IMG/VR virus record: IMGVR_UViG_3300024511_000002
Span: 1 to 27,948 of that record
Length of the DNA stretch: 27,948 nt
Origin: a virus
Direction: 5' to 3' (one strand)
The stretch's first letter is position 1, and each line of letters begins with the position of its first letter. Positions 9,832 to 21,993 of the stretch are shown in pieces. The notes beneath the pieces are model-generated. The model worked only from the letters and a program-made list of their open reading frames with translations. It was not told the origin of the DNA and searched no databases. The translations under genes were made by a program, and so were the position numbers.

Positions 9832-10501
9832 TCCGAGCTGCGTAGTCCGCGCCGGCGAGACGATCGAGGTCGTCGAGGACCACTGGCTGATGCCCGACGG
9901 CACGACGCGCGAGACGATCGCCGGCTGCGACATTTCGCCCGATGCCAATATGCTGATCATCGCCGAGGACGAGGACGACCCCGAGCCGAGGTATTCGCAA
10001 CCGTGCGTCCCGCTGGTGCCGGTGCCGGTCGATGTCTCGCCCGATGTCTCACCGACCGACGATAGCCTGTCGCCGCCGGACGCAATCGCGCCGGATGACC
10101 AGCACACAGCCACGGTCGCGATGCTGCCGACGCCCCCGCGGATACCGCCGGAATCGGCAACGCAGACGACGACCGTCGTGGTGGCTGTCGCCGCTGTCGG
10201 TGCTGCTAGCTGGCTCGGCGTCAAGGCCCTCGGCCAGTTGGCCAACGGCAGCAGCTCGAGCGCCAACCAGAACGGCGAGCAGCAGCGCAAAGAGGACGAG
10301 CGCAAAGAGCGCGAGCAGTGCGCGACCGCAAGCGACGGCATGGTCAACGACTTCCGAGCGCGCCTCGCCGACTTCAAGACGCGCCGCCTGTCGGAGGTCG
10401 GCGATCCGATTGAGCTGTGGCAACGCTGCGACCTCCTCGAGGCCCAGGCCGATCACCTAGCGCGATGGCTGCGGGCTCGCGCCAAGACTCGCCGCGCATA
10501 A
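9812..10501 (+). CDS. Hypothetical single-pass membrane protein (229 aa)
   Basis: Not recognised. N-terminal 100 residues are acidic and proline-rich with strand-like segments (CVVRAGETIEVVEDHWLMPD, NMLIIAEDEDDPEP) and several cysteines. One hydrophobic segment, TTTVVVAVAAVGAASWLGV, lies at about 118-136. The C-terminal 90 residues are strongly charged and helical (NGEQQRKEDERKEREQC, DDxx-poor, many Arg/Glu). The ATG lies 20 bases before the end of the preceding gene. It is the last plus-strand gene of the left arm, and its final 49 bases overlap the convergent lytic transglycosylase gene on the minus strand. A lysis-control or envelope role is possible but unsupported. Confidence 0.55.
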   Translation: MPSLPSDPSCVVRAGETIEVVEDHWLMPDGTTRETIAGCDISPDANMLIIAEDEDDPEPRYSQPCVPLVPVPVDVSPDVSPTDDSLSPPDAIAPDDQHTATVAMLPTPPRIPPESATQTTTVVVAVAAVGAASWLGVKALGQLANGSSSSANQNGEQQRKEDERKEREQCATASDGMVNDFRARLADFKTRRLSEVGDPIELWQRCDLLEAQADHLARWLRARAKTRRA

Positions 10502-10803
10502 CCTGCGCCGCACTTGCCGCGCACGCCAGCGTTGCCGCATCGATAGCCTGCCAATGCTCGCGACCAGTCGCCGCCACTCCTGCGATACCATTGAGCCAAC
10601 ATTCGCGCGCCCTCGGCCCGGTTGATCGATGGCAGGAATAGCGCCCACCGCGGCGCCAAGGCATAGCGCGGCTGCACCTGCATGACGCCGACGCAGCCCG
10701 ACCGCGACACGACGTCCCACCGGCCGCGACTCTCGACGTGCTCGACCGCCTCGAGCAGGCCGGGCGGCATGAATGCCAGAGCGGTGATATAGGCGGCGAT
10801 CAT
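10453..10803 (-). CDS. Small SLT-type lytic transglycosylase (116 aa)
   Basis: Lysozyme-like fold of the Slt70 C-terminal (SLT) family, which cleaves the glycan chain and leaves 1,6-anhydro ends. The family signature is visible: GLLEAVEHVESRGRWDVVSR with the probable catalytic Glu24, then GCVGVMQVQPRYA (SLT motif GxMQxxP) and ALAGYRCGNAG, equivalent to the AYNaG motif. The start ATG at 10803 overlaps the stop of the 42-aa gene (ATGA). N-terminal residues 1-14 are hydrophobic but too short for a clear signal peptide. It is the most distal gene of the minus-strand operon and its end overlaps the plus-strand gene ending at 10501. The fold call is good; expression in an early-type unit is unusual for a lysis enzyme, so an entry or wall-remodelling role is possible. 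Confidence 0.7.
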   Translation of the reverse strand: MIAAYITALAFMPPGLLEAVEHVESRGRWDVVSRSGCVGVMQVQPRYALAPRWALFLPSINRAEGARMLAQWYRRSGGDWSRALAGYRCGNAGVRGKCGAGYARRVLARARSHRAR

Positions 10804-10928
10804 TTCTTGCCGTACATGAGCTGGCCGCAGTGACGGCAGCGCCAGAACACACGGCCGTCGATGGCGACCGCAAGGCCAAAGTCGTGCAGCCCGAGGCGGC
10901 AGCGCAACCGGCGAATCCACGTCACCAT
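10800..10928 (-). CDS. Zinc-ribbon microprotein (42 aa)
   Basis: Short gene with a clear GGAGG seven bases before its ATG (minus strand) and 4-base overlap with the transglycosylase gene downstream. The product carries CRLGLHDF near the N-terminus and WRCRHCGQLMYGKK at the C-terminus: Cys10, His15, Cys31 and Cys34 are suited to bind one zinc. The layout resembles small phage zinc proteins of the DUF1660 type (CxLGxH ... CxxCG). Its start overlaps the methyltransferase stop by seven bases. Function unknown; many phage microproteins of this build bind host proteins, but nothing in the sequence shows this. Confidence 0.55.
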   Translation of the reverse strand: MVTWIRRLRCRLGLHDFGLAVAIDGRVFWRCRHCGQLMYGKK

Positions 10929-11737
10929 GGGAGATCCTCCCCTTCGTAAGCACTGCCGGTCCGCGTGGTTGCCCCCACAAAAGAAGCACCGGCAGGCTCC
11001 GCCACCGTGGCGGAACTGATAAGGTCGAGCTGCACGGCTGGCGCGCGCTCATCGAATAGTGGCCGCACCGGGATGCGGGCGGTCGTCACCCGGTCGATGG
11101 CTTTGGCGTGCGTCGTGGCGTCGAGCTCTGCGCCGATGGCCTGTCGGCCTTCCCACAGTGCGGCCAGCAGCGTCGTGCCACCGCCGGCGCATGGGTCGCA
11201 GACGACATCCCCCGGTCGGCTGTAGTCTCGGACGATGGCGCGCATCAGGTCGAGCGGCTTGGCGCCAGCCACTGCGCCGTGCTTTTCGCAATGCGACCAG
11301 TAGGCGCCAGGCAAGCAGCCCCAAGTGGCGTAGGTGCGATTGCGGGGCCTCGCGACCAGCAACCACACTGTCCAGCTCGACGGGCCGTCGCCGACCAGCC
11401 GGGGCCGCGGCTGGATGATGGGTATTGGCGCAAAGGAATACAGGCCGGCGGCGGCGTAAGCCTCCTGATATGCCGGCGCCAGGTCGTGTGACGTCATCGC
11501 GCAGATCCAGCCGGTGCAGTGCTCGGCGGCCCACGAGACGAAATCGCCGACATCCCATGGCGTCCAATGCGTGTAGTCGATGGCCGTGCGCGTTGCCTGT
11601 CCCGTGACCGTCCGTACCTGCTTCTCGCCGGCGTTCCAGCCCTGGTGCGTGCCAGCACCATACGGCGGATCCGTGATAATGGCGTGGCAGCGGAAGCCGG
11701 GCCGGAAGGCGTCGCGGTAGTGGCCGCGGGTGATCAT
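10922..11737 (-). CDS. Amino-DNA methyltransferase, beta class, DPPY type (271 aa)
   Basis: S-adenosylmethionine-dependent DNA methyltransferase, probably N6-adenine. Motif IV (AIITDPPYGAGTH) lies near residue 20, and motif I (DVVCDPCAGGGTTLLAALWE) near 190, so the order is the beta class. No large target-recognition domain is seen between them, only about 150 residues with several Trp and Tyr. The ATG at 11737 overlaps the stop of the upstream gene (ATGA). No restriction endonuclease gene is adjacent, so this is an orphan enzyme, most simply protecting phage DNA or altering regulation. The target sequence cannot be read. An N4-cytosine enzyme is the less likely alternative, given DPPY rather than SPPY. 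Confidence 0.85.
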   Translation of the reverse strand: MITRGHYRDAFRPGFRCHAIITDPPYGAGTHQGWNAGEKQVRTVTGQATRTAIDYTHWTPWDVGDFVSWAAEHCTGWICAMTSHDLAPAYQEAYAAAGLYSFAPIPIIQPRPRLVGDGPSSWTVWLLVARPRNRTYATWGCLPGAYWSHCEKHGAVAGAKPLDLMRAIVRDYSRPGDVVCDPCAGGGTTLLAALWEGRQAIGAELDATTHAKAIDRVTTARIPVRPLFDERAPAVQLDLISSATVAEPAGASFVGATTRTGSAYEGEDLPW

Positions 11738-12153
11738 CGGGCAGCCTCAAGGGCTTTGATCAAGACCTTCGCTGCTCCTGTGTCGGCGAAGTGATCATCA
11801 GGCAGATATGCGCCATCGATCTCGCAACTCAGCGACCACATGCCACGGTCGAGATATGTCAGACACATACGTCCATGGCCCTCATTTCCCCAAAGTTCCG
11901 TCACCAATTCCGAAAGGCATCCAATAGTCGCAGGATCGCTCAACAAAGGAACGACGCCAATTGGCTCATCCAATAGGACTTCCTCGGCTAAACAATCCCA
12001 CCAAAGGCCATGCCCGACATAACGAGCGGCTCCATCTCGCGTAAGACCAAGCATCCCAGGCATCCACCGCCAGTATTTGCACGCCACAGCTCGTCGACCA
12101 AGATCCAAATCTGCAAACACCTGCGGGATCAAATCAGCAAATTTCGTCATCAT
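11734..12153 (-). CDS. Conserved phage protein, paralogue of 15613-16032 (139 aa)
   Basis: Function unknown. The protein shares with the gene at 15613-16032 the blocks RRAVACKYWRWMPGM (15613 copy: RRAVACKHWRWMPGM), LSDPATIGCLSELVTELW (copy: LSDPATLGCLLALVREAW) and the C-terminal ALEAA; both products are 139 residues. I recall this RAVAC-WRWMPGM family as frequent in phages without known role. The DNA here, about 11760-12150, is visibly less G+C-rich than its neighbours, whereas the second copy matches the surroundings better, so the two copies have different histories. Two in-frame ATG codons (12153, 12150) overlap the stop of the upstream gene. No membrane segment. Confidence 0.7.
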   Translation of the reverse strand: MMTKFADLIPQVFADLDLGRRAVACKYWRWMPGMLGLTRDGAARYVGHGLWWDCLAEEVLLDEPIGVVPLLSDPATIGCLSELVTELWGNEGHGRMCLTYLDRGMWSLSCEIDGAYLPDDHFADTGAAKVLIKALEAAR

Positions 12154-12740
12154 CTCGACCTCTCAGATCGGGCGAGCTTGCGGGTACCCTTGGGGCCTCG
12201 CTCGCGGATTTCATTCCCGGCGACGTAGACGTTGCGGCCGAGCTGGCGCAGGACCGTCGCCTGACACTCGCGGCACCAGTTCGGCGCCAGCGGTCGGCCA
12301 AAGTCGGCCTGCTCGCGGATCCGCTTGCCGCACAGGCTAGTGGCGGCGGTGGCCCAAGCGTGCGCGACCAGGCGTTGCACGGCGGCCCACACGATGCCCT
12401 CGACGGCCGGGACCGGGCACACGTCGAGCGGTCGACTGTCGGGCCTGACCTCGACCACCATGGCCAGCGTCGGCAGGTTGCGCGCTTGTCCCTCGGCGAT
12501 GGCCCACGCAGCGCCCGGCGCTTGTGCGATGAGGCGCTCGCGCTCGGCCTGCTCTCGAATGCGCTGGTCTCGCATGGCGATCAACACGTTGGTCTCCGCG
12601 GTGGGCGGCGGCGGCATCCCGTCGGGAAGCTCGGCGCAAATCGGACATCGACGACTGCGGCAGATTCGGCTTCGGGCGGTGGCATGGAGCCGGGCGATCA
12701 CCAGTTCGGAAAACTCACGATCGCTCACGGCCCCAGCCAT
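12150..12740 (-). CDS. Hypothetical zinc-binding protein (196 aa)
   Basis: Not recognised. Two cysteine groups are visible: RRCPICAELPDG near residue 30 and SLCGKRIREQADFGRPLAPN WCREC near 140-160, with a long charged helix between them (AMRDQRIREQAERERLIAQA). The pattern suggests two zinc knuckles or one zinc site built from distant pairs. GGAGG six bases before the ATG at 12740 sets the start. It lies directly downstream of the RecT gene with a 12-base gap and is followed, with a 4-base overlap, by the paralogue gene. A role in nucleic-acid handling is suggested only by position and zinc residues. Confidence 0.55.
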   Translation of the reverse strand: MAGAVSDREFSELVIARLHATARSRICRSRRCPICAELPDGMPPPPTAETNVLIAMRDQRIREQAERERLIAQAPGAAWAIAEGQARNLPTLAMVVEVRPDSRPLDVCPVPAVEGIVWAAVQRLVAHAWATAATSLCGKRIREQADFGRPLAPNWCRECQATVLRQLGRNVYVAGNEIRERGPKGTRKLARSERSR

Positions 12741-12752
12741 CCACGCCCTCCG

Positions 12753-13553
12753 CTAACCCTCGACGGCGACAGCTTGTCCCGTTGTCGCCTCGACGTCAAC
12801 GAACTGGCGCGCGGCGAGGAACTGCGACCACCGCTCGGCGCCGTTGCCGTCGAGCCACCGCGTGAGCGACTGGCGCGCCTCGTGCGTCATCGCCGACGGC
12901 CGTGGCTTGCCCAAGCTCGAGCAGAAGTCGGCGACCGTCTCGTAGTCCCAGCCCCGGCCGTGGAGGTAGGCGCAGAAGCCAGCCCGGTCGCGCTCCCACG
13001 ACTCGTGATGCTCGGTCGGAATCGGCGCAGCCACCGGCGGGGCCACGACGGCCACCGGAGCTCCTTCCTCGTCGACCGACGCACCGAGCTCCTCGGGCGT
13101 GTAGATCACCCCGTGCAAGGCCTCGGAGCAGGCCATGCGCGCGACCTCGGTGATCGCACGGCTGCGAAGCATGGCGGCGGGATACTGCTTCCACACCGAC
13201 TTGCCGGTGAGGTTGGCAGCCCGCGCCCGGTCCAGCGTCCACACGACGTGGAACCCGTCGAACTCTGGATCGTCGCAGCGGATAATCTGGGCGTGCGCCT
13301 CGCGGTCGTCGCCCCACACGCGCAGCTTGTGGCCAGCTCGACGAACAAGCGCGGCGATGAGGTCGGCCGACGCGGTCGGCTTGCCATCGATAACGTGGAT
13401 GCCGGTTACCGCGGTCATGGTCGGCACGCGGATTGCCTCGGCGTACTCAATGGCCCAGATCAGGTTTGACGGCTGCCGCTGGTACTGCTTGGGCAGCATC
13501 GAGCTATCAGCGAGAGTGCGCGCGAGCGCGAGCTTGTCAGAGGTGCTGGTCAT
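12753..13553 (-). CDS. recT: RecT-family single-strand annealing protein (266 aa)
   Basis: ATP-independent annealase that coats single strands made by the exonuclease and pairs them with complementary DNA. The RecT pattern is clear: LPKQYQRQPSNLIWAIEYAE, then IHVIDGKPTASADLIAALVR, GHKLRVWGD, CDDPEF, and KSVWKQYPAAMLRSRAITEV followed by ARMACSEALHGVIYTPEELG. The C-terminal 90 residues are variable and contain a region resembling a binding tail (ESWERDRAGFCAYLHGRGWD). AGGAG seven bases before the ATG; the leader before it carries the GGCCGCGCAACGG / GGAGACAG block shared with two other sites. Directly follows the RecE-like exonuclease gene, the usual pairing. Confidence 0.88.
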   Translation of the reverse strand: MTSTSDKLALARTLADSSMLPKQYQRQPSNLIWAIEYAEAIRVPTMTAVTGIHVIDGKPTASADLIAALVRRAGHKLRVWGDDREAHAQIIRCDDPEFDGFHVVWTLDRARAANLTGKSVWKQYPAAMLRSRAITEVARMACSEALHGVIYTPEELGASVDEEGAPVAVVAPPVAAPIPTEHHESWERDRAGFCAYLHGRGWDYETVADFCSSLGKPRPSAMTHEARQSLTRWLDGNGAERWSQFLAARQFVDVEATTGQAVAVEG

Positions 13554-13556
13554 GTT

Positions 13557-13585
13557 CTGTCTCCTGCGGCCGTTGCGCGGCCGTT
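13557..13585 (-). repeat. Shared leader block, copy B (before RecT gene)
   Basis: On the minus strand this reads AACGGCCGCGCAACGGCC, then GGAGACAG and the RecT start. CGGCC and GGCCG arms separated by GCGCAAC can form a 5-bp hairpin just before the Shine-Dalgarno. Similar blocks lie at 14769-14800 and 21679-21712. The stop codon of the RecE-like gene lies inside the block. Confidence 0.6.
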
Positions 13586-14336
13586 ATGCCCACCGGGGCG
13601 GTTGAAGCTTGCCGGACGTTGCGAGCCCCGGCCAGTCGTCGAACTCTACGCACGCAGCGTAGGTACGGATCGCACGATCCCACAGAGCGCGACCGCGCGC
13701 AACAAACTCGTCGCCGGCCTCCATCACGACGACGTCATGCGGCGCCGACGAGGTCACGAAAACAAACACCTTCGGCAGCTCGCGGCCGGTGAGGATGCGG
13801 CCGGCCTCGATATAGGCTGCCGCCGACACGTGATAGCCATACTGCCAGGCGGCACGCTGGATGCCGTCCTCGTCGTCGGCGCTGGTCGTCTTGAGGTCGA
13901 CGATGTGGGTGTCGGTGATGCAGTCGATCTTGGCCTTGAGCTGGGCGCCGTCGCGCTCCCACAACACTGGCTCCTCGAAACGCCCGCCGGTCATCAGGTC
14001 GCCGGCGCCGGACAGCTCCACCGCGCGGGCCATGGCGTGGACACGGTCCCAGTCGTCTCCGGTGACGGCGATGCGGCCGGCGTTGTCGGCGGCCCATTGC
14101 TCGGCCGCGGCCTTGCCTTCCTTGGTTCGACGGTCGAAGCCCGGCGATAGCGCGTACCGCTCGGCGAACACCTGCGGCTCGAGCACCAGCGCGTGAAACA
14201 TCGTGCCGAATTCCATCGCGGCGGTCGGCTTCACGGGGTGCTCGCGCTCCCAACGGTACCGGGCCGGCGACTTGAGCAAGGTCTTGGCGCCGCTGGCCGA
14301 GAGGCGCGGGAGGCCGTGGTAGGTGCGGTCGTCCAT
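13584..14336 (-). CDS. RecE-like exonuclease, PD-(D/E)XK family (250 aa)
   Basis: Probable 5'-3' double-strand exonuclease like the RecE C-terminal domain/exonuclease VIII, giving the single strands used by RecT. Visible family pattern: YHGLPRLSASGAKTLLKSPA at the N-terminus, then AMEFGTMFHALVLEPQVF, and the nuclease core AKIDCITDTHIVDLKTT, in which Asp of KIDC and Asp-x-Lys of VDLKTT form the PD-(D/E)XK site; AAWQYGYHVSAAAYIEAGR follows as usual. GGAGG six bases before the ATG at 14336 favours this start over a TTG two codons earlier. Size is typical for the isolated domain. It directly precedes recT in the transcript, 30 bases apart. Confidence 0.85.
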   Translation of the reverse strand: MDDRTYHGLPRLSASGAKTLLKSPARYRWEREHPVKPTAAMEFGTMFHALVLEPQVFAERYALSPGFDRRTKEGKAAAEQWAADNAGRIAVTGDDWDRVHAMARAVELSGAGDLMTGGRFEEPVLWERDGAQLKAKIDCITDTHIVDLKTTSADDEDGIQRAAWQYGYHVSAAAYIEAGRILTGRELPKVFVFVTSSAPHDVVVMEAGDEFVARGRALWDRAIRTYAACVEFDDWPGLATSGKLQPPRWA

Positions 14337-14338
14337 GA

Positions 14339-14485
14339 TCAACCTCCGATCAACAGGCAGAAGCCTACGATGACAGCCAACCCAACGATGACGGCCGCGG
14401 CGTTGATGATTTCGGCGACGAGTGACGCCTTGCGGGCGGCAGCTTCAGCGCGGCAGGTGATGCAGTAGCGCGGGTCGTGGCGCAT
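14339..14485 (-). CDS. Small membrane protein with CxxC (48 aa)
   Basis: Too short for most gene finders but well placed: its stop overlaps the region before the RecE-like start, and it begins two bases after the upstream gene ends. The product starts MRHDPRYCITCRAEAAARKA with a CxxC pair (Cys8, Cys11), followed by one hydrophobic helix, IINAAAVIVGLAVIVGFCLL, ending LIGG. The likely topology is a short cytoplasmic zinc- or redox-active head on a single membrane anchor. GGGGGAA upstream can serve as Shine-Dalgarno. Function unknown. The membrane segment is clear; that it is expressed is inferred from spacing. Confidence 0.5.
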   Translation of the reverse strand: MRHDPRYCITCRAEAAARKASLVAEIINAAAVIVGLAVIVGFCLLIGG

Positions 14486-14487
14486 GG

Positions 14488-14763
14488 TTATTCCCCCTTG
14501 ATCAAGAATTTGGCAAACATCGGGAAGCCGCGGCCGATGAGCACAGCGCAAACCCAGTTCCACACGGCCACCCGCGCGGCGTCTTGCTGGCAGCTGATAA
14601 TGAGGTCGGCGAACACGGGGCCGGGCATGCGCTGGTCGCGGTGGGCCTCGGCGCACCAAGTCAGCGCGTCGGCGATGCGACGGGCCGTCATCTTCTGCAC
14701 TTCGACCGACTTGCGCGCCAGCTCGATTTGGCGGCCTTCTGTTTTGGGGTCGATGGGTAGCAT
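14488..14763 (-). CDS. First gene of the recombination unit, hypothetical (91 aa)
   Basis: Not recognised. The product is helical: RQIELARKSVEVQKMTARRI forms a charged helix, followed by TWCAEAHRDQRMPGPVFADL and a C-terminal hydrophobic region (VAVWNWVCAVLIGRGFPMFA) that could be a membrane segment. The ATG at 14763 is preceded by GGGAG and by shared leader block A; an excellent sigma70-type promoter lies 47 bases upstream, so this is the first gene transcribed from it. The frame is open further upstream to 14850, but that would place the start across the promoter and is rejected. It is followed with a 2-base gap by the small membrane gene, the RecE-like gene and recT. Confidence 0.6.
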   Translation of the reverse strand: MLPIDPKTEGRQIELARKSVEVQKMTARRIADALTWCAEAHRDQRMPGPVFADLIISCQQDAARVAVWNWVCAVLIGRGFPMFAKFLIKGE

Positions 14764-14768
14764 GGTCT

Positions 14769-14800
14769 CTGTCTCCCTTGTGGCGTTGCGGGCCGCTGTT
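14769..14800 (-). repeat. Shared leader block, copy A
   Basis: Minus-strand reading: AACAGCGGCCCGCAACGCC followed by GGAGACAG and the ATG at 14763. It starts three bases after the predicted transcription start of the promoter at 14810-14838, so it would form the 5' end of the mRNA. Copies B and C are at 13557-13585 and 21679-21712. Confidence 0.6.
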
Positions 14801-14805
14801 GATGT

Positions 14806-14820
14806 CCCCACTATATGGGG
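14806..14820. repeat. Inverted repeat around -10 box, candidate operator
   Basis: CCCCA-CTATA-TGGGG: perfect 5-base arms with a 5-base centre. The centre is the -10 box of the minus-strand promoter, so a protein bound here would block initiation. No second copy was seen in the window. Operator function is inferred. Confidence 0.45.
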
Positions 14821-14838
14821 TGGCGGAAACGGTGTCAA
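14810..14838 (-). promoter_or_regulatory. Sigma70-type promoter of recombination unit
   Basis: On the minus strand TTGACA (14838-14833) is separated by exactly 17 bases from TATAGT (14815-14810). The -35 is the consensus and the -10 matches five of six. A/T-rich AAAAGTTTTTTCG lies just upstream of the -35 and could act as an UP element. The predicted start is near 14803. It would drive the genes at 14763 and below (RecE-like, RecT and onward), giving them an entry separate from the upstream operon. The gap 14764-14874 contains only this promoter and leader A. Confidence 0.85.
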
Positions 14839-14874
14839 TACTTCTCGCAAGGGGATAGCGAAAAAACTTTTGCC

Positions 14875-15099
14875 CTACCCGTCCCGGTTCAGCCCGACCA
14901 GCTCGCGCGCCATTCGGCGAGCCTCGTTGGCCTTGCCCCAGCCGCAATTGCAGTCGACGTCGGCGCGGGTTGCACACCACTGCTCGTGGCTCCGCTCTGG
15001 CCACCAGAGGATGACGGCGCGCAGTCGGCGCAGGCGGTCGAGCTCGGGCCACGTTTCGACGGCTTCGCGCAGGGCTTCGCAGGACATGGGTTTCCTCAT
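14875..15099 (-). CDS. Hypothetical small cysteine-containing protein (74 aa)
   Basis: Not recognised. GGAGG seven bases before the ATG at 15099 fixes the start (the frame is open upstream to 15171, without a good ribosome site). The product has a helical N-terminus (CEALREAVETWPELDRLRRL), a tryptophan-rich middle (AVILWWPERSHEQW) and a cysteine group CATRADVDCNCGWG, followed by a basic helix (KANEARRMARELVGLNRD). Three clustered cysteines and a nearby His could bind zinc. It is the last gene before the 14810-14838 promoter and overlaps its upstream neighbour by four bases. Confidence 0.55.
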   Translation of the reverse strand: MRKPMSCEALREAVETWPELDRLRRLRAVILWWPERSHEQWCATRADVDCNCGWGKANEARRMARELVGLNRDG

Positions 15100-15305
15100 C
15101 CACCAACCTCCTGTTCCAGCCGCTGCATGGCGACTGCCATTTGGTCGCGGATTTCCTGCATGGCCAGCCATGCTTGGTTTTCCGCGTCAGTTTCCGTCTC
15201 GCGTGCGCCCCAGTAGAGCGAGGTGCCGCCGTACAGCACCGTCCATTCCCACAGACCGCTCGGCGCGAGCTTGATTCGATACTCAACCAGGTAATCGGGC
15301 GTCAT
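15096..15305 (-). CDS. Hypothetical small protein (69 aa)
   Basis: Not recognised. Starts MTPDYLVEYRIKLAPSGLWE; beta-like N-terminal half with many aromatic residues (WEWTVLYGGTSLYWGARET) and a C-terminal helix (NQAWLAMQEIRDQMAVAMQR) ending in acidic residues. The form, strands then helix with a Glu/Asp turn, is common among phage accessory proteins that fold into a small alpha/beta domain. The ATG overlaps the upstream stop and its own stop overlaps the next start, both by four bases, with only a weak Shine-Dalgarno, so it depends on coupled translation. Confidence 0.55.
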   Translation of the reverse strand: MTPDYLVEYRIKLAPSGLWEWTVLYGGTSLYWGARETETDAENQAWLAMQEIRDQMAVAMQRLEQEVGG

Positions 15306-15616
15306 CGGTCCACCAGCCCCGCTGCTTTGCGCAGCTTGGATCGTTGTTGTGCCCACTCGTAGTGCAGAGTGTCGGGTAGGGCGTCGATTGCCTCGCGCAT
15401 CCGCTTATTCTGCTCGAGCAGGTCATTGGCGACCTGCCTCAACTCCCGCAGCGTCTTGGCTTGGTCAAGGAAAGCGCATTGCTCATGCGCTTGGGCCCAC
15501 GTCTGGACAAAGTGAGACAAGTCCTTGACCGGCAACGGCAGCGCCAGCGGCTCGCGCTGACCGCAAGCCTTGCACCACAGGTTACTGCCCTGCACTACCA
15601 CATGATCAGTGTTCAT
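15302..15616 (-). CDS. Hypothetical protein, zinc knuckle plus coiled coil (104 aa)
   Basis: Not recognised. N-terminus has NLWCKACGQREPLALPLPV with one CxxC pair; then a helical C-terminal part (TLRELRQVANDLLEQNKRMR) that looks like a short coiled coil and ends with a basic QQRSKLRKAAGLVDR. A Cys and His between them (HEQCAFLD) could complete a zinc site. GGAGG seven bases before the ATG at 15616 supports the start, which overlaps the stop of the 139-aa paralogue gene. Frame is open further upstream but without a good ribosome site. Confidence 0.55.
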   Translation of the reverse strand: MNTDHVVVQGSNLWCKACGQREPLALPLPVKDLSHFVQTWAQAHEQCAFLDQAKTLRELRQVANDLLEQNKRMREAIDALPDTLHYEWAQQRSKLRKAAGLVDR

Positions 15617-16032
15617 GGCGCAGCCTCCAGTGCGGCGACCAGCGCCTCGGCTTCGGTCGAGTGGGTTACCTGCGACAAAGTCTGGAAAGTGGAGCCGTGA
15701 TGATGTCCGTCCACGACGCGCCGATAGTATCGACCGTTGCTGTACGACGACGTCACGCACGCAATGCCGGGGTCGTTCCACGCCTCCCGCACCAGCGCGA
15801 GCAAGCATCCCAGCGTGGCAGGGTCGGAAAGTTCCGGAAGGCATGCGCTAGTCAAAGTCACGATGCCGCCATCACACTCGGAGCAGGTGTTATCCCATTC
15901 GTCCCAACCACGTGCACTGTAACCTGTGTCGTAGCAAACTCGCGTGAAATCTTGGGTTTGCATCCCCGGCATCCATCGCCAGTGCTTGCACGCCACGGCC
16001 CGACGTGCGAGAGCTTGCATCTGATCGTTCAC
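15613..16032 (-). CDS. Conserved phage protein, paralogue of 11734-12153 (139 aa)
   Basis: Function unknown. Same length and same block order as the protein at 11734-12153: RRAVACKHWRWMPGM at the N-terminus, LSDPATLGCLLALVREAW in the middle, and ALVAALEAAP at the end. It has in addition a Cys pair (NTCSECDGG) and a His cluster (VDGHHHGS) absent from the other copy, possibly a metal site. GTG at 16032 is chosen because GGAGG lies seven bases upstream and because it overlaps the upstream stop (GTGA); an ATG at 16020 is the alternative. Followed with a 4-base overlap by the zinc-knuckle/coiled-coil gene. Confidence 0.7.
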   Translation of the reverse strand: MNDQMQALARRAVACKHWRWMPGMQTQDFTRVCYDTGYSARGWDEWDNTCSECDGGIVTLTSACLPELSDPATLGCLLALVREAWNDPGIACVTSSYSNGRYYRRVVDGHHHGSTFQTLSQVTHSTEAEALVAALEAAP

Positions 16033-16286
16033 GGCTCCACCTCCCGTTCCTCGCGCCAGTATTTGCCGCACCACACACAGTGGCCATACGCCAGCCCGCC
16101 CACGCTGTAGCCTGTAGTGGTCATGTTGTGCCCTGTCGCCACGCCGCACTTCTCGTGCAGGGCTTCGCGTGCGGGTCGTTGCTGCTCCGCGATCGCCTCC
16201 AGCGCAGAGGTCGACGCGCTGCGGCGCATCACATCGAGTCGCCAGTACTCAGCGATGATCTGCTTCTTGACCTGCTCGTCGCTCAT
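16029..16286 (-). CDS. Hypothetical small protein with CxxC (85 aa)
   Basis: Not recognised. The N-terminal half is a charged helix (MSDEQVKKQIIAEYWRLDVM) continuing through ALEAIAEQQRPAREALHEKC; the C-terminal half is short and strand-like with YGHCVWCGKYWREEREVEP, a CxxC pair followed by an aromatic and acidic tail. With Cys and His of HEKCGVATGH it could bind one zinc. The ATG at 16286 has GGAG eight bases upstream and overlaps the upstream HTH gene's stop by four bases. The frame is open upstream to 16439 but that part overlaps the HTH gene and lacks a ribosome site. Confidence 0.55.
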   Translation of the reverse strand: MSDEQVKKQIIAEYWRLDVMRRSASTSALEAIAEQQRPAREALHEKCGVATGHNMTTTGYSVGGLAYGHCVWCGKYWREEREVEP

Positions 16287-16498
16287 TGATCCATCTCCTT
16301 CCTCGGCAGCGTTCGCGGTCGACCGCCGGGGCCTCGCGACGGTCGCGACGGGTCGAGCTGGCGCAGGCGCTTGCGAAGGCTCTTGAGCGCGGCCAACGTC
16401 ATGCCCAGCCGGCGGGCGGCCTCGGGCAGCGTGGCGCACTGGTCGCAGACGTGGTCAATCCATGCAACGTCGGCGGCAGTTCGGGCTTTGGCGGTCAT
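16283..16498 (-). CDS. Small helix-turn-helix protein, candidate regulator (71 aa)
   Basis: The middle of the protein, TLPEAARRLGMTLAALKSLR, has the helix-turn-helix pattern (alanine at the fifth position of helix one, glycine at the turn, then a second helix), followed by a strongly basic C-terminus (SRPSRGPGGRPRTLPRKEMD). The preceding CDQC pair may add a zinc or disulfide. Such small proteins are often phage transcription regulators or the DNA-binding part of a larger complex; this is the only clear HTH protein of the early operon and so a candidate partner of the inverted repeats at 14806-14820 or in the control region. GGAG five bases before ATG 16498. Regulatory role inferred. Confidence 0.6.
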   Translation of the reverse strand: MTAKARTAADVAWIDHVCDQCATLPEAARRLGMTLAALKSLRKRLRQLDPSRPSRGPGGRPRTLPRKEMDQ

Positions 16499-16728
16499 CG
16501 GGTCTCCACGTCGCGCCGGTGTCGGCGGCAAAAGGTGCATCGCTGGCTGCGGCTGGCCCAACGGTGCGCTGGCAGCTGGCACTCGATGACCTGCGCGCGG
16601 TACCAGGCTTGGTAATGCGCCATGCACAGGTTGCGAGCCAAGCGCTTGCGGCCGCACTCGGTGCAGGCAGCCGTGGGCGGCAGGATGGTGGGGCGGCCTC
16701 GGGAGCCTTGGCTTCGTTTGCTACTCAC
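16495..16728 (-). CDS. Zinc-finger protein related to HNH/AP2-type phage proteins (77 aa)
   Basis: Central motif CTECGRKRLARNLCMAHYQA resembles the CxxCG ... A-x-G-L-C-x-x-HYQ element found at the start of many phage HNH endonucleases, and a second pair, RCTFCRRHRRD, lies near the C-terminus. No catalytic HNH histidine pair is seen, so this may be only the zinc-binding portion or a remnant. GTG start at 16728 is assumed: there is no good Shine-Dalgarno and no better codon in frame. Gap of 10 bases from the methyltransferase stop upstream. Stop overlaps the HTH gene by four bases. Confidence 0.5.
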   Translation of the reverse strand: MSSKRSQGSRGRPTILPPTAACTECGRKRLARNLCMAHYQAWYRAQVIECQLPAHRWASRSQRCTFCRRHRRDVETR

Positions 16729-16738
16729 GGCGGCTAAC

Positions 16739-17875
16739 TTATGCTCCCTCGTTGGACTTTCGGTCGACTGGCTTTGCTAACGCTTTGCTAATACGCTGGC
16801 CAATCCAACGCACCACCGGCACCGCCCAAGAGTTGCCGAGGGCCTTGTAGCGAGGCCCATCGGGACAGTCCGACGCCGGCTTTTTCTTCCACGGGATCAT
16901 CGTGTAGTCATCGGGGAACCCTTGCAGGCGCTCGCATTCACGCGGTGTCAGGCGGCGAACAGCCATAGGCGTCACCGCCATATGCTTGGGCGGGTTGTGA
17001 CGCTCGTCCCCGCCGTTGAGACAGGCGGCGACGTCGGCCTGTTCGTAGCGCGGGGCTTCGTCCGAGCTGTGCGGGCTGGTGGCTTTGACGAAAGCAACCA
17101 CGTTGAAGCTATCGGATCGACTATAGTCGTGCGATGTCGTTTCAAGCGTAGCCGCTACGTCTGATTCGCTGTTGCCCGCAAAGCATAGCGAAGCTGTGTC
17201 GGCAACTCCTTTCCGCGCTTCTCGGCTCGGCGCAATATCCCGTCGCAGGCCATCGGACTCAAATAAAATCGCGGCTGGATTGAGCCCGTTTCGAGTACCT
17301 GCGACAACGAACACACGGCGGCGTCGTTGGGCCAAGCCGAAATATTGGGCGTCGAGGACCCGCCACGCGACTGCTCTCGTGGGTCCAAGCACACAACCAG
17401 CGTCCGTCCATCGGCGCCCTGCCGGCTTGAGTGCGCAATCCTCCCCGGCAAGAGAGCCAAGGAAGCAGCCGAATGCGTTGTCCTCGGTGTTGAGTACGCC
17501 GGGGACGTTCTCCCAAAAGATGATGGCTCGATCTTGGCCTCGTCTGAGGCGAACAGCGTCAATTGCATCAGCGATCTCCACAAAGGTGAGGGTCAGGTTG
17601 CCGCGGGCGTCGTCGAGCGACCGCCGCAGGCCGGCAACGCTGAACGCTTGGCAAGGAGTACCGCCGCAAAGGAGGTCGGGCGCCTCGACATCGCCGGCGC
17701 GAATGCGACCAGGTAGCGCGGTCATATCGCCGTGGTTCGGCGTGGCCGGGTAATGATGCGCGAGCACGGCTGACGGAAACGGTTCGATTTCCGAGAACCA
17801 TGCAGCTCGCCAGCCAAGCGGCTTCCATGCCACCGACGCTGCCTCGATACCGCTGCACACGCTACCAAATCTCAT
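16739..17875 (-). CDS. C5-cytosine DNA methyltransferase (378 aa)
   Basis: Transfers a methyl group from S-adenosylmethionine to C5 of cytosine. All main motifs are in order: I, FGSVCSGIEAASVAW at residue 3; IV, GGTPCQAFSVAG with catalytic Cys75; VI, FWENVPGVL; VIII, GLAQRRRRVFVVAG; target-recognition region about 210-310; IX, RRLTPRECERLQGFPDDY; X, ALGNSWAVPVVRW. Length is normal for a single-chain enzyme. The recognition part and C-terminus are less G+C-rich than the N-terminus. No restriction gene is adjacent. A promoter ends seven bases before the ATG and there is no Shine-Dalgarno, so the mRNA may be leaderless. Sequence specificity cannot be read. Confidence 0.93.
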   Translation of the reverse strand: MRFGSVCSGIEAASVAWKPLGWRAAWFSEIEPFPSAVLAHHYPATPNHGDMTALPGRIRAGDVEAPDLLCGGTPCQAFSVAGLRRSLDDARGNLTLTFVEIADAIDAVRLRRGQDRAIIFWENVPGVLNTEDNAFGCFLGSLAGEDCALKPAGRRWTDAGCVLGPTRAVAWRVLDAQYFGLAQRRRRVFVVAGTRNGLNPAAILFESDGLRRDIAPSREARKGVADTASLCFAGNSESDVAATLETTSHDYSRSDSFNVVAFVKATSPHSSDEAPRYEQADVAACLNGGDERHNPPKHMAVTPMAVRRLTPRECERLQGFPDDYTMIPWKKKPASDCPDGPRYKALGNSWAVPVVRWIGQRISKALAKPVDRKSNEGA

Positions 17876-17882
17876 GCGCCGG

Positions 17883-17912
17883 AAGGTAGCGGAAAGCGGG
17901 GCGCGGCGTCAA
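17883..17912 (-). promoter_or_regulatory. Promoter of cytosine methyltransferase, leaderless type
   Basis: Minus strand: TTGACG (17912-17907), 18-base spacer, TACCTT (17888-17883), then seven bases to the ATG at 17875. The expected start of transcription is at or next to the A of ATG. The -35 overlaps the stop codon of the 57-aa gene upstream. It would give the methyltransferase and genes below it a separate transcript. Confidence 0.55.
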
Positions 17913-18082
17913 TAGTTTACGTCGTCGCTTTCCTCGTGATCGGGTGCCAGTAGCTCGTGCGGACCGAGCGTTTCGGCGCCGGGCACTTGGTCGCGGGCGG
18001 CCAGCTCGCGCAGCCATGCGAGGTCGGCAAAGCGGATCACGGGTGGCGGCAGCGGCTGGTGGCAGTGTGGGCAGGTGGTCAT
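17909..18082 (-). CDS. Zinc-knuckle microprotein (57 aa)
   Basis: Starts MTTCPHCHQPLPPPVIRFAD: a CxxCH knuckle followed by a proline run, then a helix (LAWLRELAARDQ) and an acidic tail (PDHEESDDVNY). Single zinc pair plus histidines, so metal binding is possible but may need a dimer. ATG overlaps the HNH gene stop (ATGA), with GAGGGAAG upstream. A longer open frame in another register covers the same bases but lacks this ribosome site and has the arginine-rich composition of a shadow. Function unknown; it belongs to the group of CxxC microproteins of this operon. Confidence 0.55.
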   Translation of the reverse strand: MTTCPHCHQPLPPPVIRFADLAWLRELAARDQVPGAETLGPHELLAPDHEESDDVNY

Positions 18083-18648
18083 CCGGCTTCCCTCTCGGCC
18101 CTATCGGCCTTGGTGATGGCTGCATGGCAGGCGACGCAGACCGCGTGCAGCAGGAACAGCGGCGTGGCGCCTAGGCGGTTGTGGTAAGCATAGGCGCGCC
18201 GGCCGTCGTGGTGAACCTGCACGGCGGCGCGGGTGCAACCGGGCAGTGCGGCCTGACATCGGCCACCGTCACGGCGCAGAACGAGCTGCCGCGCGGCGTG
18301 CCAGGCGTCGCCCTGCAGGTAGTCGCTGTACGCTTGCCACCAGTCGGCATCCTCGGCTGGCTTGGCCGCTTGCCTGATGGCGTGGCGCTTTTGGGCCTCG
18401 GCCTGTGCGGCCTTGCCTGCGGCGTCGCGCCACTCTTGCCAGCGGGCCGCGGCGGCCATGTCGGCCGACTGGGCGTCGGGATGGTCGGCCAGCTTGTGCG
18501 GCGTCGAGTCGAGGCAGCCGCAATCTAGGCACTGCTCGCGGATTCCGCGGGCGCCGCCAGCGGTCGTGATCGTGACATATCGGCTGTTGCGGTGCTCGCA
18601 GCGTATCAGCCCGTGGCGCCACAGCTTTTTTTGGGCCTTGTCAAACAT
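18079..18648 (-). CDS. HNH-endonuclease-like protein (189 aa)
   Basis: C-terminal 70 residues fit an HNH fold: WHAARQLVLRRDGGRCQAAL with the first Cys, PGC, then VQVHHDGRRAYAYHNRLGAT (HH and YHN) and HAVCVACHAAITKADR (CxxCH) closing the zinc site. N-terminus carries another possible zinc site, IRCEHRNSR ... IREQCLDCGC, and the middle is a charged helix. HNH proteins next to terminase help packaging in some phages, but this one sits in the replication operon, so it may be a homing-type or accessory nuclease. GAGG six bases before the ATG at 18648. Eight bases after the SSB stop. Confidence 0.7.
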   Translation of the reverse strand: MFDKAQKKLWRHGLIRCEHRNSRYVTITTAGGARGIREQCLDCGCLDSTPHKLADHPDAQSADMAAAARWQEWRDAAGKAAQAEAQKRHAIRQAAKPAEDADWWQAYSDYLQGDAWHAARQLVLRRDGGRCQAALPGCTRAAVQVHHDGRRAYAYHNRLGATPLFLLHAVCVACHAAITKADRAEREAG

Positions 18649-18656
18649 CCGTCACC

Positions 18657-19019
18657 TCAAAAGGGCACGTCCTCGCCGCCGTAAGGATTGCCTGCCGGAG
18701 CCTGCTTGGCGCCGAGGGCCTGCACGGTGTCGACGACCAGGACGACGTCGCGCCGCTCGACGCCTTGCTTGTCGGTCCACACGTTGGGCTCGAGACGGCC
18801 GGCGAGAAGGACCGCATCGCCCCTCTTGAGCTTGGCGGCGAACTCGGCGCTTTTGCCGAAAGCGGTGCAGGCCAGCCACAGGGTCTGCTGCTTGTCGCCG
18901 TAGCCTACCGAGCTGGCGACGCGCAGGCGGGTGATGGCGGTGCCGCTGGCAGCGGTCTTGCTCTCGGCGTCGGCGCCGAGGCGGCCGGCGATGGTTAGGT
19001 GGTTGTAATTGGCAGACAT
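18657..19019 (-). CDS. ssb: Single-stranded DNA-binding protein (120 aa)
   Basis: OB-fold SSB protecting single strands in replication and recombination. Visible pattern: NHLTIAGRLGADAESKTAAS, then TAITRLRVASSVGYGDKQQT and LWLACTAFGKSAEFAAKLKR, GDAVLLAGRLEPN, and a short C-terminus ending GGEDVPF, the acidic tip that recruits partner proteins. It lacks the long disordered linker of bacterial SSB, as is common in phages. GGAG six bases before the ATG at 19019; 25 bases overlap with the upstream zinc-ribbon gene. Position between helicase and HNH/RecET genes fits a replication-recombination role. Confidence 0.9.
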   Translation of the reverse strand: MSANYNHLTIAGRLGADAESKTAASGTAITRLRVASSVGYGDKQQTLWLACTAFGKSAEFAAKLKRGDAVLLAGRLEPNVWTDKQGVERRDVVLVVDTVQALGAKQAPAGNPYGGEDVPF

Positions 19020-19237
19020 TGGGTGCTCCGTTGAGTCAAGGTCACGCGGCCAAGGCGCCACTGCACTCGCAGGTGGTTTTTTGAGCCGCAGGTGTCGCAC
19101 ACCACCGACAGGTGGCAGACGTAGGGGTCGCCCCACTGAGGGGCCAGATCGGGCTGGTGGAAGTCGCGCTCGCCGCACACACTGCACACGAGCTGCGGCT
19201 GGTCGGACAGCGGGTCATCAAGAAGCGGGCCATGCAT
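18995..19237 (-). CDS. Zinc-ribbon protein (80 aa)
   Basis: Two CxxC pairs spaced about 30 residues, LVCSVCGERDFHQ and SVVCDTCGSKNHL, make a typical zinc ribbon; RVQWRLGRVTLTQRSTQ follows as a strand-rich end. ATG at 19237 overlaps the helicase stop (ATGA) with GGAG nine bases upstream. The last 25 bases overlap the SSB start. A second ATG one base out of register opens a serine/alanine-rich shadow frame and is rejected. Small zinc ribbons next to primase-helicase genes may help the replisome, but I see no proof here. Confidence 0.65.
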   Translation of the reverse strand: MHGPLLDDPLSDQPQLVCSVCGERDFHQPDLAPQWGDPYVCHLSVVCDTCGSKNHLRVQWRLGRVTLTQRSTQCLPITTT

Positions 19238-20607
19238 CAGTCGGCGCTCCAGTGCGGCCGGATGACCGGCGGCGTATTGGCGACGAGGCGCACGCCGCGC
19301 CAGCTGCGGGTGGCGTTCGACTTGAGCTCGCGCACACCCTCTTTCACGAGCCGGTCGGCGACAGCCTTGGCCGACAAGATCGGGAGGCCATTCTCGATGC
19401 ACCAATTCTCGAACGCGCGCCTGAACTCGGCCTTGGGCGTGCTGTAGGAGGCCGCGGCGTCAACAAGACAGCAGTCCTCGAGGAACTGGCCGACGACGTC
19501 CTCGGCCTCGCGATATTCAAGCGACGCCTGCTCGACTGCCGAGCACATGCCGAGCCGGTCGGTGTGCCACATCATCGCGCCCTCGACGGCCCAGGTCAGA
19601 ATGCCATCCGCCTCGGCCATGAGCTTGTTCGGCAGCTCGCGGTCGATCTGGTGGTCCTCGATCTGCGCGAGGAACGGGATCAACCGCATCCGGCGCCACA
19701 TCCCACGGTCAGTGCCACGGATGCGCGGCTTGCTGTTGCCGCTGAGCCAGAGCGTCCACGTCGGCTCGTGCTCCTCGTTGTCCTGATGCAGGCGCCGAGC
19801 TTTGACCGGGTCGCCGCCGGTGAGCTCCTTGACCTTGCCTTCGTCGAGGGTGGCTGTGGGCGAGACCTCGGAGCCGACGGCGAAGCGGGCGCCAAACAGG
19901 TCGGCAATCTCGGTCGTGTGCGGCTTGTTTTTCTGCATCTCGAAAAAGGAGCCGGGCAGGATCGTCGCGTAGTCGCCGAGGATGCGACGAATGGCGTTCA
20001 AGATCGAGCCCTTGCCGTTGCCTCCACCGCCAAAGCAGAAGGCAAAGATCTGCTCTTGCTGATGGCCGTAGAGGCTGGCGCCGATCGCCCGTTGCAGCCA
20101 GCCGATCAGCTCGGCGTCGTCGCGCATTGCCCAGGCGACAAGGGCGGTCCACGTCGGCGCGCTCGAGCCCGGCGCATATCCGGCGCGGGTAATGCGGCTG
20201 CAATAGTCCTCGGGCCGGTGCTGGTGCAAGACGCCGGTGCGTAGATCGACGAGGCCCGTGGTGGTGTTGAGCGTGTTCGGATCGGCATCGAATCGCTCGA
20301 AGGTGGTCGCGATCTGGCGGTCGGCCTGCGCCAGCGTCACCATCGCCCGTTGGCGCGACAGGCTCTCGGATGATTCGCCCCACTTGCGAACGGCGTTCAT
20401 GCCTTCGACCGTGGCGGCGCTCGCGGCCTCGAGCTGGATGCCGCGCGCCACCAGACGGGCCGCAAGGTAGCGTTGTTCGGTCGTGTCGACGGCCCAGACC
20501 TTGCCATCCCACCGGCGCCACTGGTCACGGCTTGCAACGTATCGATATTCGGCGGCGAACTGGTCGGCGAATCGCTCGGCGTTGCCGAGGTCGGTCAACG
20601 GCCTCAT
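19237..20607 (-). CDS. D5/P4-type SF3 replicative helicase (456 aa)
   Basis: ATP-driven hexameric 3'-5' helicase of superfamily 3. N-terminal D5-like part (residues about 10-180) contains NTLNTTTGLVDLRTGVL; the ATPase core has Walker A GGGGNGKGS at 193-201, Walker B region RFAVGSEV near 241-248, sensor region WLSGNSKPRI near 288, and arginine-rich RGMWRRMRLIPF near 301. The last 60 residues (LPILSAKAVADRLVKEGVRE) look like the C-terminal winged helix of P4-type proteins. It lacks its own primase; that is the next gene upstream, overlapping by four bases. GGAGG six bases before the ATG at 20607 decides the start over longer open frame. Confidence 0.9.
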   Translation of the reverse strand: MRPLTDLGNAERFADQFAAEYRYVASRDQWRRWDGKVWAVDTTEQRYLAARLVARGIQLEAASAATVEGMNAVRKWGESSESLSRQRAMVTLAQADRQIATTFERFDADPNTLNTTTGLVDLRTGVLHQHRPEDYCSRITRAGYAPGSSAPTWTALVAWAMRDDAELIGWLQRAIGASLYGHQQEQIFAFCFGGGGNGKGSILNAIRRILGDYATILPGSFFEMQKNKPHTTEIADLFGARFAVGSEVSPTATLDEGKVKELTGGDPVKARRLHQDNEEHEPTWTLWLSGNSKPRIRGTDRGMWRRMRLIPFLAQIEDHQIDRELPNKLMAEADGILTWAVEGAMMWHTDRLGMCSAVEQASLEYREAEDVVGQFLEDCCLVDAAASYSTPKAEFRRAFENWCIENGLPILSAKAVADRLVKEGVRELKSNATRSWRGVRLVANTPPVIRPHWSAD

Positions 20608-21557
20608 CGCGCACCTCCCTGCTCGGCGAGCGTGCGCTGGTAGAGACCCTCGGCGGCACGCAGCCGGGAGCGAACCACATCCTCCGGCGAAGGTCGATAG
20701 CCAATCGCCGACAGCGCGTCGGCCAACTTGCGGCCCTCGCAGTGAGCGTGCGAACAGTAGAACGTCGCCGGGCTGCCGGCGCTGCGCTCCCAGATGACGG
20801 TCGACGTGGTCTGACCGTGCCAGTCTGGGTGCGAGTGCTCGCCGGTCCACGGGCAGATGATCGCCCACTTCCCGCCGCCCAAGTCACGCGGCGAGAATCC
20901 CGCCGAGCCAAAGATGTCGATCACGTCGAGGCCGGCCCAATCGATGCCCGAGAGCGACGTGCGGAGCTGGCGGCGGGGCGCTGGCGCGGGCAGCGGGGCG
21001 AGCTGGGCGACGACCTCCGACGCACGGTATGTGCAGCCGCTGTCCTCGACGATCTCGACCGCGAACGGCTCGCCCTTGCAGTGCCAGAAACCGGGGACGC
21101 GCATCACGCGGTCGAGGTTGTGGATCTTCGGGTCCGACTGATAGTGCTGGATGAGGCGCTTCTGGTGGCCGCGGAAGTCGGCGAGCGGGATCGTGTCCGA
21201 GAGGCGCCAGTAAGCGTGGACGCCGGCAAACGACCGCACCACCAGCGACGGCGGCAGATGGAACGACCTCGGGACGAAGCCATCGGTGTCGATCCACAGG
21301 GCGCGCACCGAGCGAATGTTTGAGGCCCGCCGGCCGTGCAGATCGGTCTCGTTCACCGTGACAAACACGCCAGCGCCGGCCGCGTTGGCCCGCGCGAGCT
21401 GGTAGGAGACCGCGGCAAGAGGACCGTGCAGGATTGCCGCCATCGTGCGGTCGCGCCGGGTCGGCGAATCGTCGAACGTCTGCCAAGTCATCGCCGAGAG
21501 CGACGAGCCGGTGAGGATGCGGACGAAGGTGGCAGCTTGGGCGAGATCAGGTCGCAT
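20604..21557 (-). CDS. RepB-type archaeo-eukaryotic primase (317 aa)
   Basis: Probable DNA primase/polymerase making primers for phage replication. Residues about 80-165 show the AEP core: RALWIDTDGF (Asp90 and Asp92, metal ligands), VVRSFAGVHAYWRLS (His114) and HNLDRVMRVPGFWHCKGE (basic residues 150-161), as in RepB primases of plasmids and phages. The C-terminal part has a zinc-finger-like group CPWTGEHSHPDW ... FYCSHAHCEGRKL, like the primase CHC2 finger. GGAGG five bases before the ATG at 21557. The stop overlaps the helicase start, so primase and helicase are made together. It heads the replication unit. Confidence 0.85.
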   Translation of the reverse strand: MRPDLAQAATFVRILTGSSLSAMTWQTFDDSPTRRDRTMAAILHGPLAAVSYQLARANAAGAGVFVTVNETDLHGRRASNIRSVRALWIDTDGFVPRSFHLPPSLVVRSFAGVHAYWRLSDTIPLADFRGHQKRLIQHYQSDPKIHNLDRVMRVPGFWHCKGEPFAVEIVEDSGCTYRASEVVAQLAPLPAPAPRRQLRTSLSGIDWAGLDVIDIFGSAGFSPRDLGGGKWAIICPWTGEHSHPDWHGQTTSTVIWERSAGSPATFYCSHAHCEGRKLADALSAIGYRPSPEDVVRSRLRAAEGLYQRTLAEQGGAR

Positions 21558-21672
21558 GCGAGCCTCCAGCCATCGCCCACGACACCAGCAGGCGCAACCC
21601 CGGAAGTCGCGGAGACAGACACGCGACGTCGGGCCGTACTGATGCCGTGGGCGATAGCAAGGAGGTGAACAT
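21547..21672 (-). CDS. Possible leader peptide or small upstream gene (41 aa)
   Basis: The minus-strand ATG at 21672 follows shared leader block C (GGAGACAG ending seven bases before it) and the predicted promoter at 21720-21748, exactly as the first genes after blocks A and B. It encodes MFTSLLSPTASVRPDVACLS and on, with a hydrophobic LRLLVSWAMAGG near the end, stopping at 21547, 11 bases inside the primase gene. No family recognised. It may be a leader peptide coupling translation of the primase. A competing plus-strand open frame (21671-21832) covers part of the same bases, so only one, or neither, may be real. Confidence 0.35.
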   Translation of the reverse strand: MFTSLLSPTASVRPDVACLSPRLPGLRLLVSWAMAGGSHAT

Positions 21673-21678
21673 GGGGCG

Positions 21679-21712
21679 CTGTCTCCGGAACCCAACGGCG
21701 TTGCGGGCCGTT
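21679..21712 (-). repeat. Shared leader block, copy C
   Basis: Minus strand: AACGGCCCGCAACGCC, then ten bases and GGAGACAG before ATG 21672. It starts exactly where transcription from the 21720-21748 promoter is expected to begin. Copies A and B: 14769-14800 and 13557-13585. Confidence 0.6.
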
Positions 21713-21719
21713 GCTGGCA

Positions 21720-21748
21720 ACCCTACCCCGACGGGCAGCAGCCGTCAA
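21720..21748 (-). promoter_or_regulatory. Promoter of replication operon
   Basis: Minus strand: TTGACG (21748-21743), 17-base spacer, TAGGGT (21725-21720). The start is expected near 21712-21713, at leader block C. It would drive primase, helicase, SSB and the genes below. A CGAGGGACA element lies 20 bases upstream of the -35. Confidence 0.65.
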
Positions 21749-21762
21749 GACGGCCACCAAAA

Positions 21763-21777
21763 GGGACACGAGGGACA
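21763..21777 (+). repeat. GGGACACGAGGGACA element 1
   Basis: Direct copy, core CGAGGGACA at 21769-21777, followed by AG rather than CG. Within the plus strand it contains two GGGACA half-sites nine bases apart. Confidence 0.6.
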
Positions 21778-21793
21778 AGCGCGGGCCTCGATT

Positions 21794-21810
21794 CGGGACG
21801 CTTTGTCCCG
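21794..21810. repeat. Palindrome CGGGAC-N5-GTCCCG
   Basis: Perfect 6-base arms around GCTTT; shares the GGGAC half-site with the neighbouring elements. No T-run follows, so it is not read as a terminator. Confidence 0.5.
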
Positions 21811-21837
21811 TGGTAAGGGGCTGAGACCATAAGGGAA

Positions 21838-21854
21838 GGGACACGAGGGACACG
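21838..21854 (+). repeat. GGGACACGAGGGACACG element 2
   Basis: Exact CGAGGGACACG core at 21844-21854, same orientation as the copy at 21763, directly before a TTTTTT run that opens the A/T-rich stretch. Confidence 0.65.
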
Positions 21855-21869
21855 TTTTTTCTAGAATGG

Positions 21870-21883
21870 GGATCACATGATCC
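21870..21883. repeat. Palindrome GGATCA-CA-TGATCC
   Basis: Perfect 6-base arms with a 2-base centre inside the A/T-rich stretch; contains two GATC sites, possible targets of Dam-type methylation. Regulator or initiator binding is inferred. Confidence 0.45.
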
Positions 21884-21956: not shown

Positions 21957-21993
21957 AATGGCTGAAAGGTCGCGCAATGGTTGAGCAAAGTGC

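Follow-up and report, generated by a model that had tools for sequence, protein, structure and literature searches.

A probable sigma-70-type promoter with a recurring hairpin leader before the RecE/RecT genes of a phage, and an inverted repeat on its −10 box that is not conserved in relatives

How is the recombination unit of this phage transcribed, and does the inverted repeat on the −10 box of its presumed promoter act as an operator? The window (the whole stretch of DNA that was analysed, 27,948 nt) carries genes for RecE-like and RecT-like proteins on the minus strand. A preliminary description had proposed that this RecE/RecT unit has a strong promoter of its own, separate from the replication promoter, which could be shut by a repressor acting through the repeat.

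The promoter elements were confirmed by direct reading of the sequence. On the minus strand, a −35 hexamer TTGACA (14838–14833) is followed at 17 nt spacing by a −10 hexamer TATAGT (14815–14810), and an A/T-rich tract lies upstream. Promoter and leader occupy a non-coding gap of 111 nt (14764–14874, minus strand). According to a gene list that we chose from the ORFs, genes elsewhere in the leftward block (followed down to 10.8 kb) overlap or are at most 33 nt apart, except at one gap of 217 nt (19020–19236), which is filled by an 80-codon ORF. No other site in the whole window matches 11 or more of the 12 consensus bases, and 0.015 such sites would be expected (mean of 200 windows simulated with its dinucleotide steps; at least five of six bases matched in the −35 hexamer, spacing 16–18 nt). 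Sigma-70-type hexamers at this spacing are thus present above chance level (11 of 12 bases, 17 nt). A looser scan (9 of 12) of positions 10000–20000 gave one promoter-like site versus 1.2 in shuffled sequences.

The first gene of the unit (14488–14763, minus strand) encodes a 91-residue protein with no assigned function, for which no Pfam, PHROGs or PADLOC model was found at the limits used. Its structural model is helical (mean pLDDT 89.9; best PDB match at E 3.4), and in structure searches with this protein and with a small helix–turn–helix (HTH)-like protein encoded further upstream, no match fell below E 0.6. It is followed on the same strand by the gene for a 48-residue protein with a CxxC pattern and a hydrophobic stretch, both seen by eye (14339–14485; no Pfam family), which has a counterpart at 4071–4220 of the related locus L007. 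Next come a RecE-like exonuclease (13584–14336; DUF3799, E 1.9e-28; exonuclease VIII family, E 2.7e-74) and a RecT-like annealing protein (12753–13553; PHROGs, E 2e-43; Pfam RecT, 0.001, below its cut-off).

DNA comparison of positions 13500–16800 with annotated phages returned no relatives, and the 91-residue protein had no match among annotated phages at E 0.01; for RecE and RecT, this collection contains many distant matches. To find relatives, the 91-residue protein, RecT and RecE were used as queries against viral contigs, and an alignment of RecT against bacterial genomes. Five records were used: 3300006802_001917 (L003/L004/L017), 3300024490_000007 (L002/L005/L018), 3300025872_003038 (L006/L033), 3300025848_001819 (L007/L034), which has no mismatch to L006 across the length of L006, and VGRO01000307.1 (L042), titled as a Deltaproteobacteria MAG, in which RecT is 59% and RecE 40% identical and the first gene is different. 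Positions 1–5028 of the latter carry the RecE/RecT unit together with primase-like, HNH-like and sliding-clamp-like ORFs (labelled by eye) and look viral. Among 13 RecT loci in viral contigs, only L004–L007, representing three contig types, entered the promoter comparison; promoter-like sites in L012–L016, unmatched to the RecE/RecT unit, were left out. The bacterial genomes contributed 15 RecT loci, and L042 was the single one in which the coding strand has a promoter-like site. A search with the pattern TTGACA-N3-TTTCCGCCACC matched 11 stretches, with L018 as the sole relative. L031 and L032, which by eye contain the leader core with neither promoter nor gene start, were set aside; L046 and L011 have a similar core in other contexts.

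In the relatives, the position of the promoter is kept. TTGACA, identical throughout, heads the RecE/RecT unit at 17 nt from the −10 hexamers TAAGCT (L002), TAAAGT (L006/L007) and CAGAAT (L042). The L003 contig starts inside the spacer, so that its −35 box is cut off; its −10 hexamer is TATAGT as in the window. The hexamers of L042 and L002 are poor as −10 boxes, and this counts against the promoter reading. The near-consensus match and the corresponding promoters at the head of the unit in relatives bear out the proposal that the unit has its own promoter. As far as sequence comparison goes, it is well supported as real and conserved, with activity expected from a start near 14803.

Downstream of the promoter the sequence runs GCGGCCCGCAACGCCACAAGGGAGACAG, five bases, ATG. 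This is one copy of a leader found at three gene starts in the window, namely those of the first ORF before the replication genes, of the first gene of the RecE/RecT unit and of recT. In each, a 5-bp hairpin with the loop NCGCAAC is followed by the Shine–Dalgarno-like segment GGAGACAG and then by ATG. All three are on the minus strand. The copy at the RecE/RecT promoter (14780–14796, loop CCGCAAC, one stem pair broken) precedes GGAGACAG at 14769–14776, that before recT (CGGCC-GCGCAAC-GGCCG, 13566–13584) precedes it at 13557–13564, and that before the replication genes (21694–21712) precedes it at 21679–21686, with the ATG at 21672. Related copies stand before two genes in L018, three in L017 and one in L034. 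The hairpin at the equivalent place in L042 (GCCCCG-CTG-CGGGGC) is unrelated in sequence.

The stem covaries. Over nine aligned copies (eight distinct), 38 of 40 cells are paired and three of the five pairs have changed on both sides, in a small set that was aligned by the loop and in which three of the four cells with double-sided changes come from the recT copy. None of 500 shuffles attained the covariation score of 0.343. When the partners were slid against each other, the score was 0.250 at +3, where three pairs are left, and otherwise below 0.1. Energy folding is weak evidence for the hairpin: z-scores for seven stretches ranged from −2.17 (L002) to +1.14, and two cuts of the copy at the RecE/RecT promoter gave −0.81 and +1.14. 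Compared with 60 permutations of the loop sequence, the real CGCAAC yields the most hairpins in the window (four versus a mean of 0.5), only two of the four being leader copies. The segment GGAGACAG occurs four times where 0.97 are expected, and three of 100 shuffles have as many; three occurrences lie 3, 5 and 6 nt before an ATG, and the fourth (21611, plus strand) is not at a start. An Rfam search over 10000–22500 gave one sub-threshold miRNA model at 16518–16583, which we take as chance. The leader is the most informative, recurring part of the locus.

Directly behind the promoter, two of the relatives have a small gene enclosed by two leader copies, encoding 61 residues in L002 (977–1162) and 74 residues in L003 (72–296). 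The two proteins are not similar to each other and have weak or no family matches. At that place the window has one leader copy and no small gene. Promoter and leader might form an exchange point, at which homologous leader copies let small genes swap in behind a strong promoter. The dissimilar inserts between paired copies and the single copy in the window speak for this idea. However, it is drawn from three contigs, the weak or missing family matches of the inserted proteins count against it, and L006/L007 also have a single leader copy there. We regard it as a tentative possibility.

The inverted repeat itself was confirmed. On the plus strand it reads CCCCACTATATGGGG (14806–14820) with its centre at 14813, inside the −10 box; the minus strand reads CCCCA-TATAG-TGGGG, with 5 bp of pairing and none further outward. 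When TATAGT was fixed and the flanks followed the local base composition, 5.1% of 200,000 trials produced a perfect 5-bp-arm repeat with its centre in the −10 box, and the window contains 265 perfect 5-bp-arm repeats with loops of 3–8 nt in total. Distinct promoter-like sites (at least 10 of 12 consensus bases) numbered 75 in the loci collected for this comparison, and 10 of them had arms of 5 bp or more; the window is included in this set, as are two loci that were retrieved with a pattern requiring such a repeat. A second CCCCA-N5-TGGGG, sought across the window, does not occur; the single copy is that at the promoter. The motif seems unlike familiar LexA boxes, and a LexA-type operator was set aside.

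Loss of the repeat from relatives that retain the promoter had been named beforehand as a result that would refute the proposal that a repressor shuts the promoter through it. Such a loss is what we found. Of the five arm positions, all are paired in the window and in L003, one is paired in L002, two in L006 and none in L042 (one at the window's own replication promoter). Hence three of the four distinct relative sequences (L002, L006/L007 and L042) have the promoter without the repeat, and the dyad is kept in one of the four (one of five records), L003, whose −35 box is out of view. Because relatives with the promoter are without the repeat, and with no repressor tied to the site, the operator claim is unsupported. 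The repeat is real in its letters, unconserved and near chance level, and as a feature it is weakly supported.

L006 retains GTGGGG after the −10 box but has no left arm; L002 retains the spacer CCGCCACCC with its C-rich end but has no repeat. Wherever the −35 box is visible (four promoters), the −10 box is followed by four bases that are all G or C (GGGGACAT, GGCCACAT, GGGGTCAT and CGCCACAT). G+C-rich discriminators are known from growth-rate-controlled promoters, and the right arm of the repeat can be read as one. Most likely, the repeat around the −10 box is the meeting of a C-rich spacer end and a G+C-rich discriminator in one sub-lineage, and no conserved operator.

A true operator could still have escaped conservation if a dimeric repressor on CCCCA-N5-TGGGG blocked RNA polymerase and its specificity had changed in the relatives, as in the immunity groups of temperate phages. 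The dyad lies exactly on the −10 box, and L003 preserves it exactly. Between the window and L002, seven of eight differences over 60 columns, from the −35 box into the leader, are confined to a 12-nt part of the repeat (p 0.0004 by permutation); the −35 box, the remaining spacer and all leader bases but one are unchanged. Such clustering would look like operator replacement, and equally like a relaxed −10 region. Repeats of the same form occur elsewhere. A scan with TTGACA-N11-13-CCCCATATANTGGGG, which was uncontrolled, returned two viral contigs that show no relationship to the window, L029 and L030, whose repeats extend to CCCCCATATAATGGGGG and CCCCCATATACTGGGGG and are in sequence unlike the site at 14806–14820. 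These C5AT...G5 repeats surround TATAAT and TATACT, at 5081–5113 of L029 and 8841–8873 of L030. In L029, TTGACA stands 4 nt before a possible ATG on the opposite strand, which leaves the orientation of the promoter unsure. We also surveyed 56 RecE loci; the 52 distant ones had 22 promoter-like sites within 1500 nt upstream, which served as background only. In one distant locus, L065, a repeat with 7-bp arms (GTTGGCA-CAA-TGCCAAC) lies on a promoter-like −10 box about 149 nt before the aligned RecE start (3001). Four others (L082, L086, L087 and L088) share at −229 a repeat with 5-bp arms, CCATTTACATAATGG. The L065 repeat and this one are likewise unlike the site in the window. Against the operator stand the best repeats centred in the −10 boxes of L002, L006 and L042, with arms of just 3, 2 and 3, the single site in the window and the chance level given above. 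Moreover, apart from weak matches of the HTH protein, no integrase or CI-like repressor was found among the scanned proteins, which are a subset of the ORFs of a possibly incomplete record. On balance, we consider a true operator unlikely. Less probable still is a combined arrangement, in which the leader is a post-transcriptional tag on replication and recombination genes and a joint for small-gene swaps, and the −10 region of the promoter is an independently diversifying, fast-changing operator.

The small HTH-like protein with a basic tail, encoded upstream of the promoter (16283–16498, minus strand), had been suggested as a candidate for binding. Its family matches are all weak (transposase, E 0.0027; CII-like, E 0.045 and 0.022; HTH_29, E 0.013). 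The structural model has three helices over residues 8–48, with a mean pLDDT of 71 and a best PDB match at E 0.63. Orthologues in L002 (90% identical) and L007 (49%) are likewise encoded upstream of the promoter, and in L007 the gene ends directly at it. Since the HTH gene lies upstream of promoters without the repeat, the repeat is not its conserved target. That the protein regulates the RecE/RecT promoter, as activator or repressor, via another site is improbable: its location in the relatives, the three-helix model and the CII-like matches speak for it, but five genes intervene in the window, the matches and the model are weak, and no common site was identified.

The claim of a promoter separate from that of the replication genes stood in part. 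A distinct promoter-like TTGACG-N17-TAGGGT does lie before the replication genes (21748–21720, minus strand), but taken alone this site is within chance: the window has two matches to the pattern, a number also reached in 18 of 100 shuffles. Immediately upstream of these genes, at 21760–22013, (C)GAGGGACACG is clustered in both orientations, with eight matches at up to two mismatches in about 250 nt; over the whole window, such matches are not above chance (21 versus 18.4). The cluster is a possible origin or operator array. Ahead of the primase gene, a 41-residue ORF lies in a stretch (21547–21712, minus strand) in which the GGAGACAG preceding the ATG of the ORF is complementary to CTGTCTCC within the ORF. 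This stretch folds at −54.3 kcal/mol, and two of 200 shuffles fold as well. L034 keeps the start of the ORF and the complement; the contig ends there, and the fold is not significant. Further along (22643–24013, plus strand), a ParB-like N-terminal domain is fused to an N6/N4 DNA methyltransferase.

Taken together, we favour as the probable explanation a sigma-70-type promoter of a phage recombination operon with a recurring hairpin leader, the repeat being no conserved operator. A housekeeping promoter would drive the recombination operon of a tailed phage, comprising the 91-residue and 48-residue proteins, RecE, RecT and probably genes beyond. Its recurring parts would be TTGACA, the 17-nt spacing, an A/T-rich −10 box and a G+C-rich discriminator. 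To these the leader, about 40 nt long, would add its small hairpin, joined in the closer relatives by a ribosome-binding segment of GGAGACA type. Discriminator and hairpin may have roles of their own (in translation or mRNA stability). There is nothing unusual in a strong phage promoter ahead of RecE/RecT genes. The comparison demonstrates that an inverted repeat on a −10 box, seen in a single genome, is easily mistaken for an operator. The leader hairpin with its covarying stem would be of greater consequence: if it controls translation, it would be a tag for recognizing genes of an uncultivated phage group, including small genes inserted behind the promoter.

Operators overlapping a −10 box are familiar from lambda-type control in phages. 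The dyad at 14806–14820 resembles them in its position over the −10 box and differs from them in being a single site with no cognate repressor found and no conservation in relatives. Operons of the acr–aca type (PMC8434428) offer another comparison. An inverted repeat in the promoter is known from such operons. The downstream proteins of the window, scanned with family models other than Aca models, had no HTH family match. The locus is similar to such operons in combining a phage promoter with an inverted repeat, small variable genes and a nearby HTH gene; it is dissimilar in that the HTH gene found here precedes the promoter and the repeat is not conserved.

The leader compares with the Start Associated Sequences (SAS) of Cluster K mycobacteriophages, described in PMC3203893 as a repeated segment with a Shine–Dalgarno core a few nucleotides before the ATG of non-structural genes. 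About half of the SAS have an inverted repeat just upstream (extended SAS or ESAS, 17-bp imperfect repeats). As with SAS, the Shine–Dalgarno-like GGAGACAG is repeated within a few nucleotides of three starts, and as with ESAS an inverted repeat lies upstream of the segment, here with a 5-bp stem. Unlike SAS, the leader does not contain the 13-bp consensus GGGATAGGAGCCC; its one match with two mismatches in the window is at 22102–22114 (0.54 expected). Cluster K genomes have 11–19 copies, and ESAS hairpins had little support in the view of the authors (PMC3203893), whereas the window has three copies, and their stem covaries as RNA.
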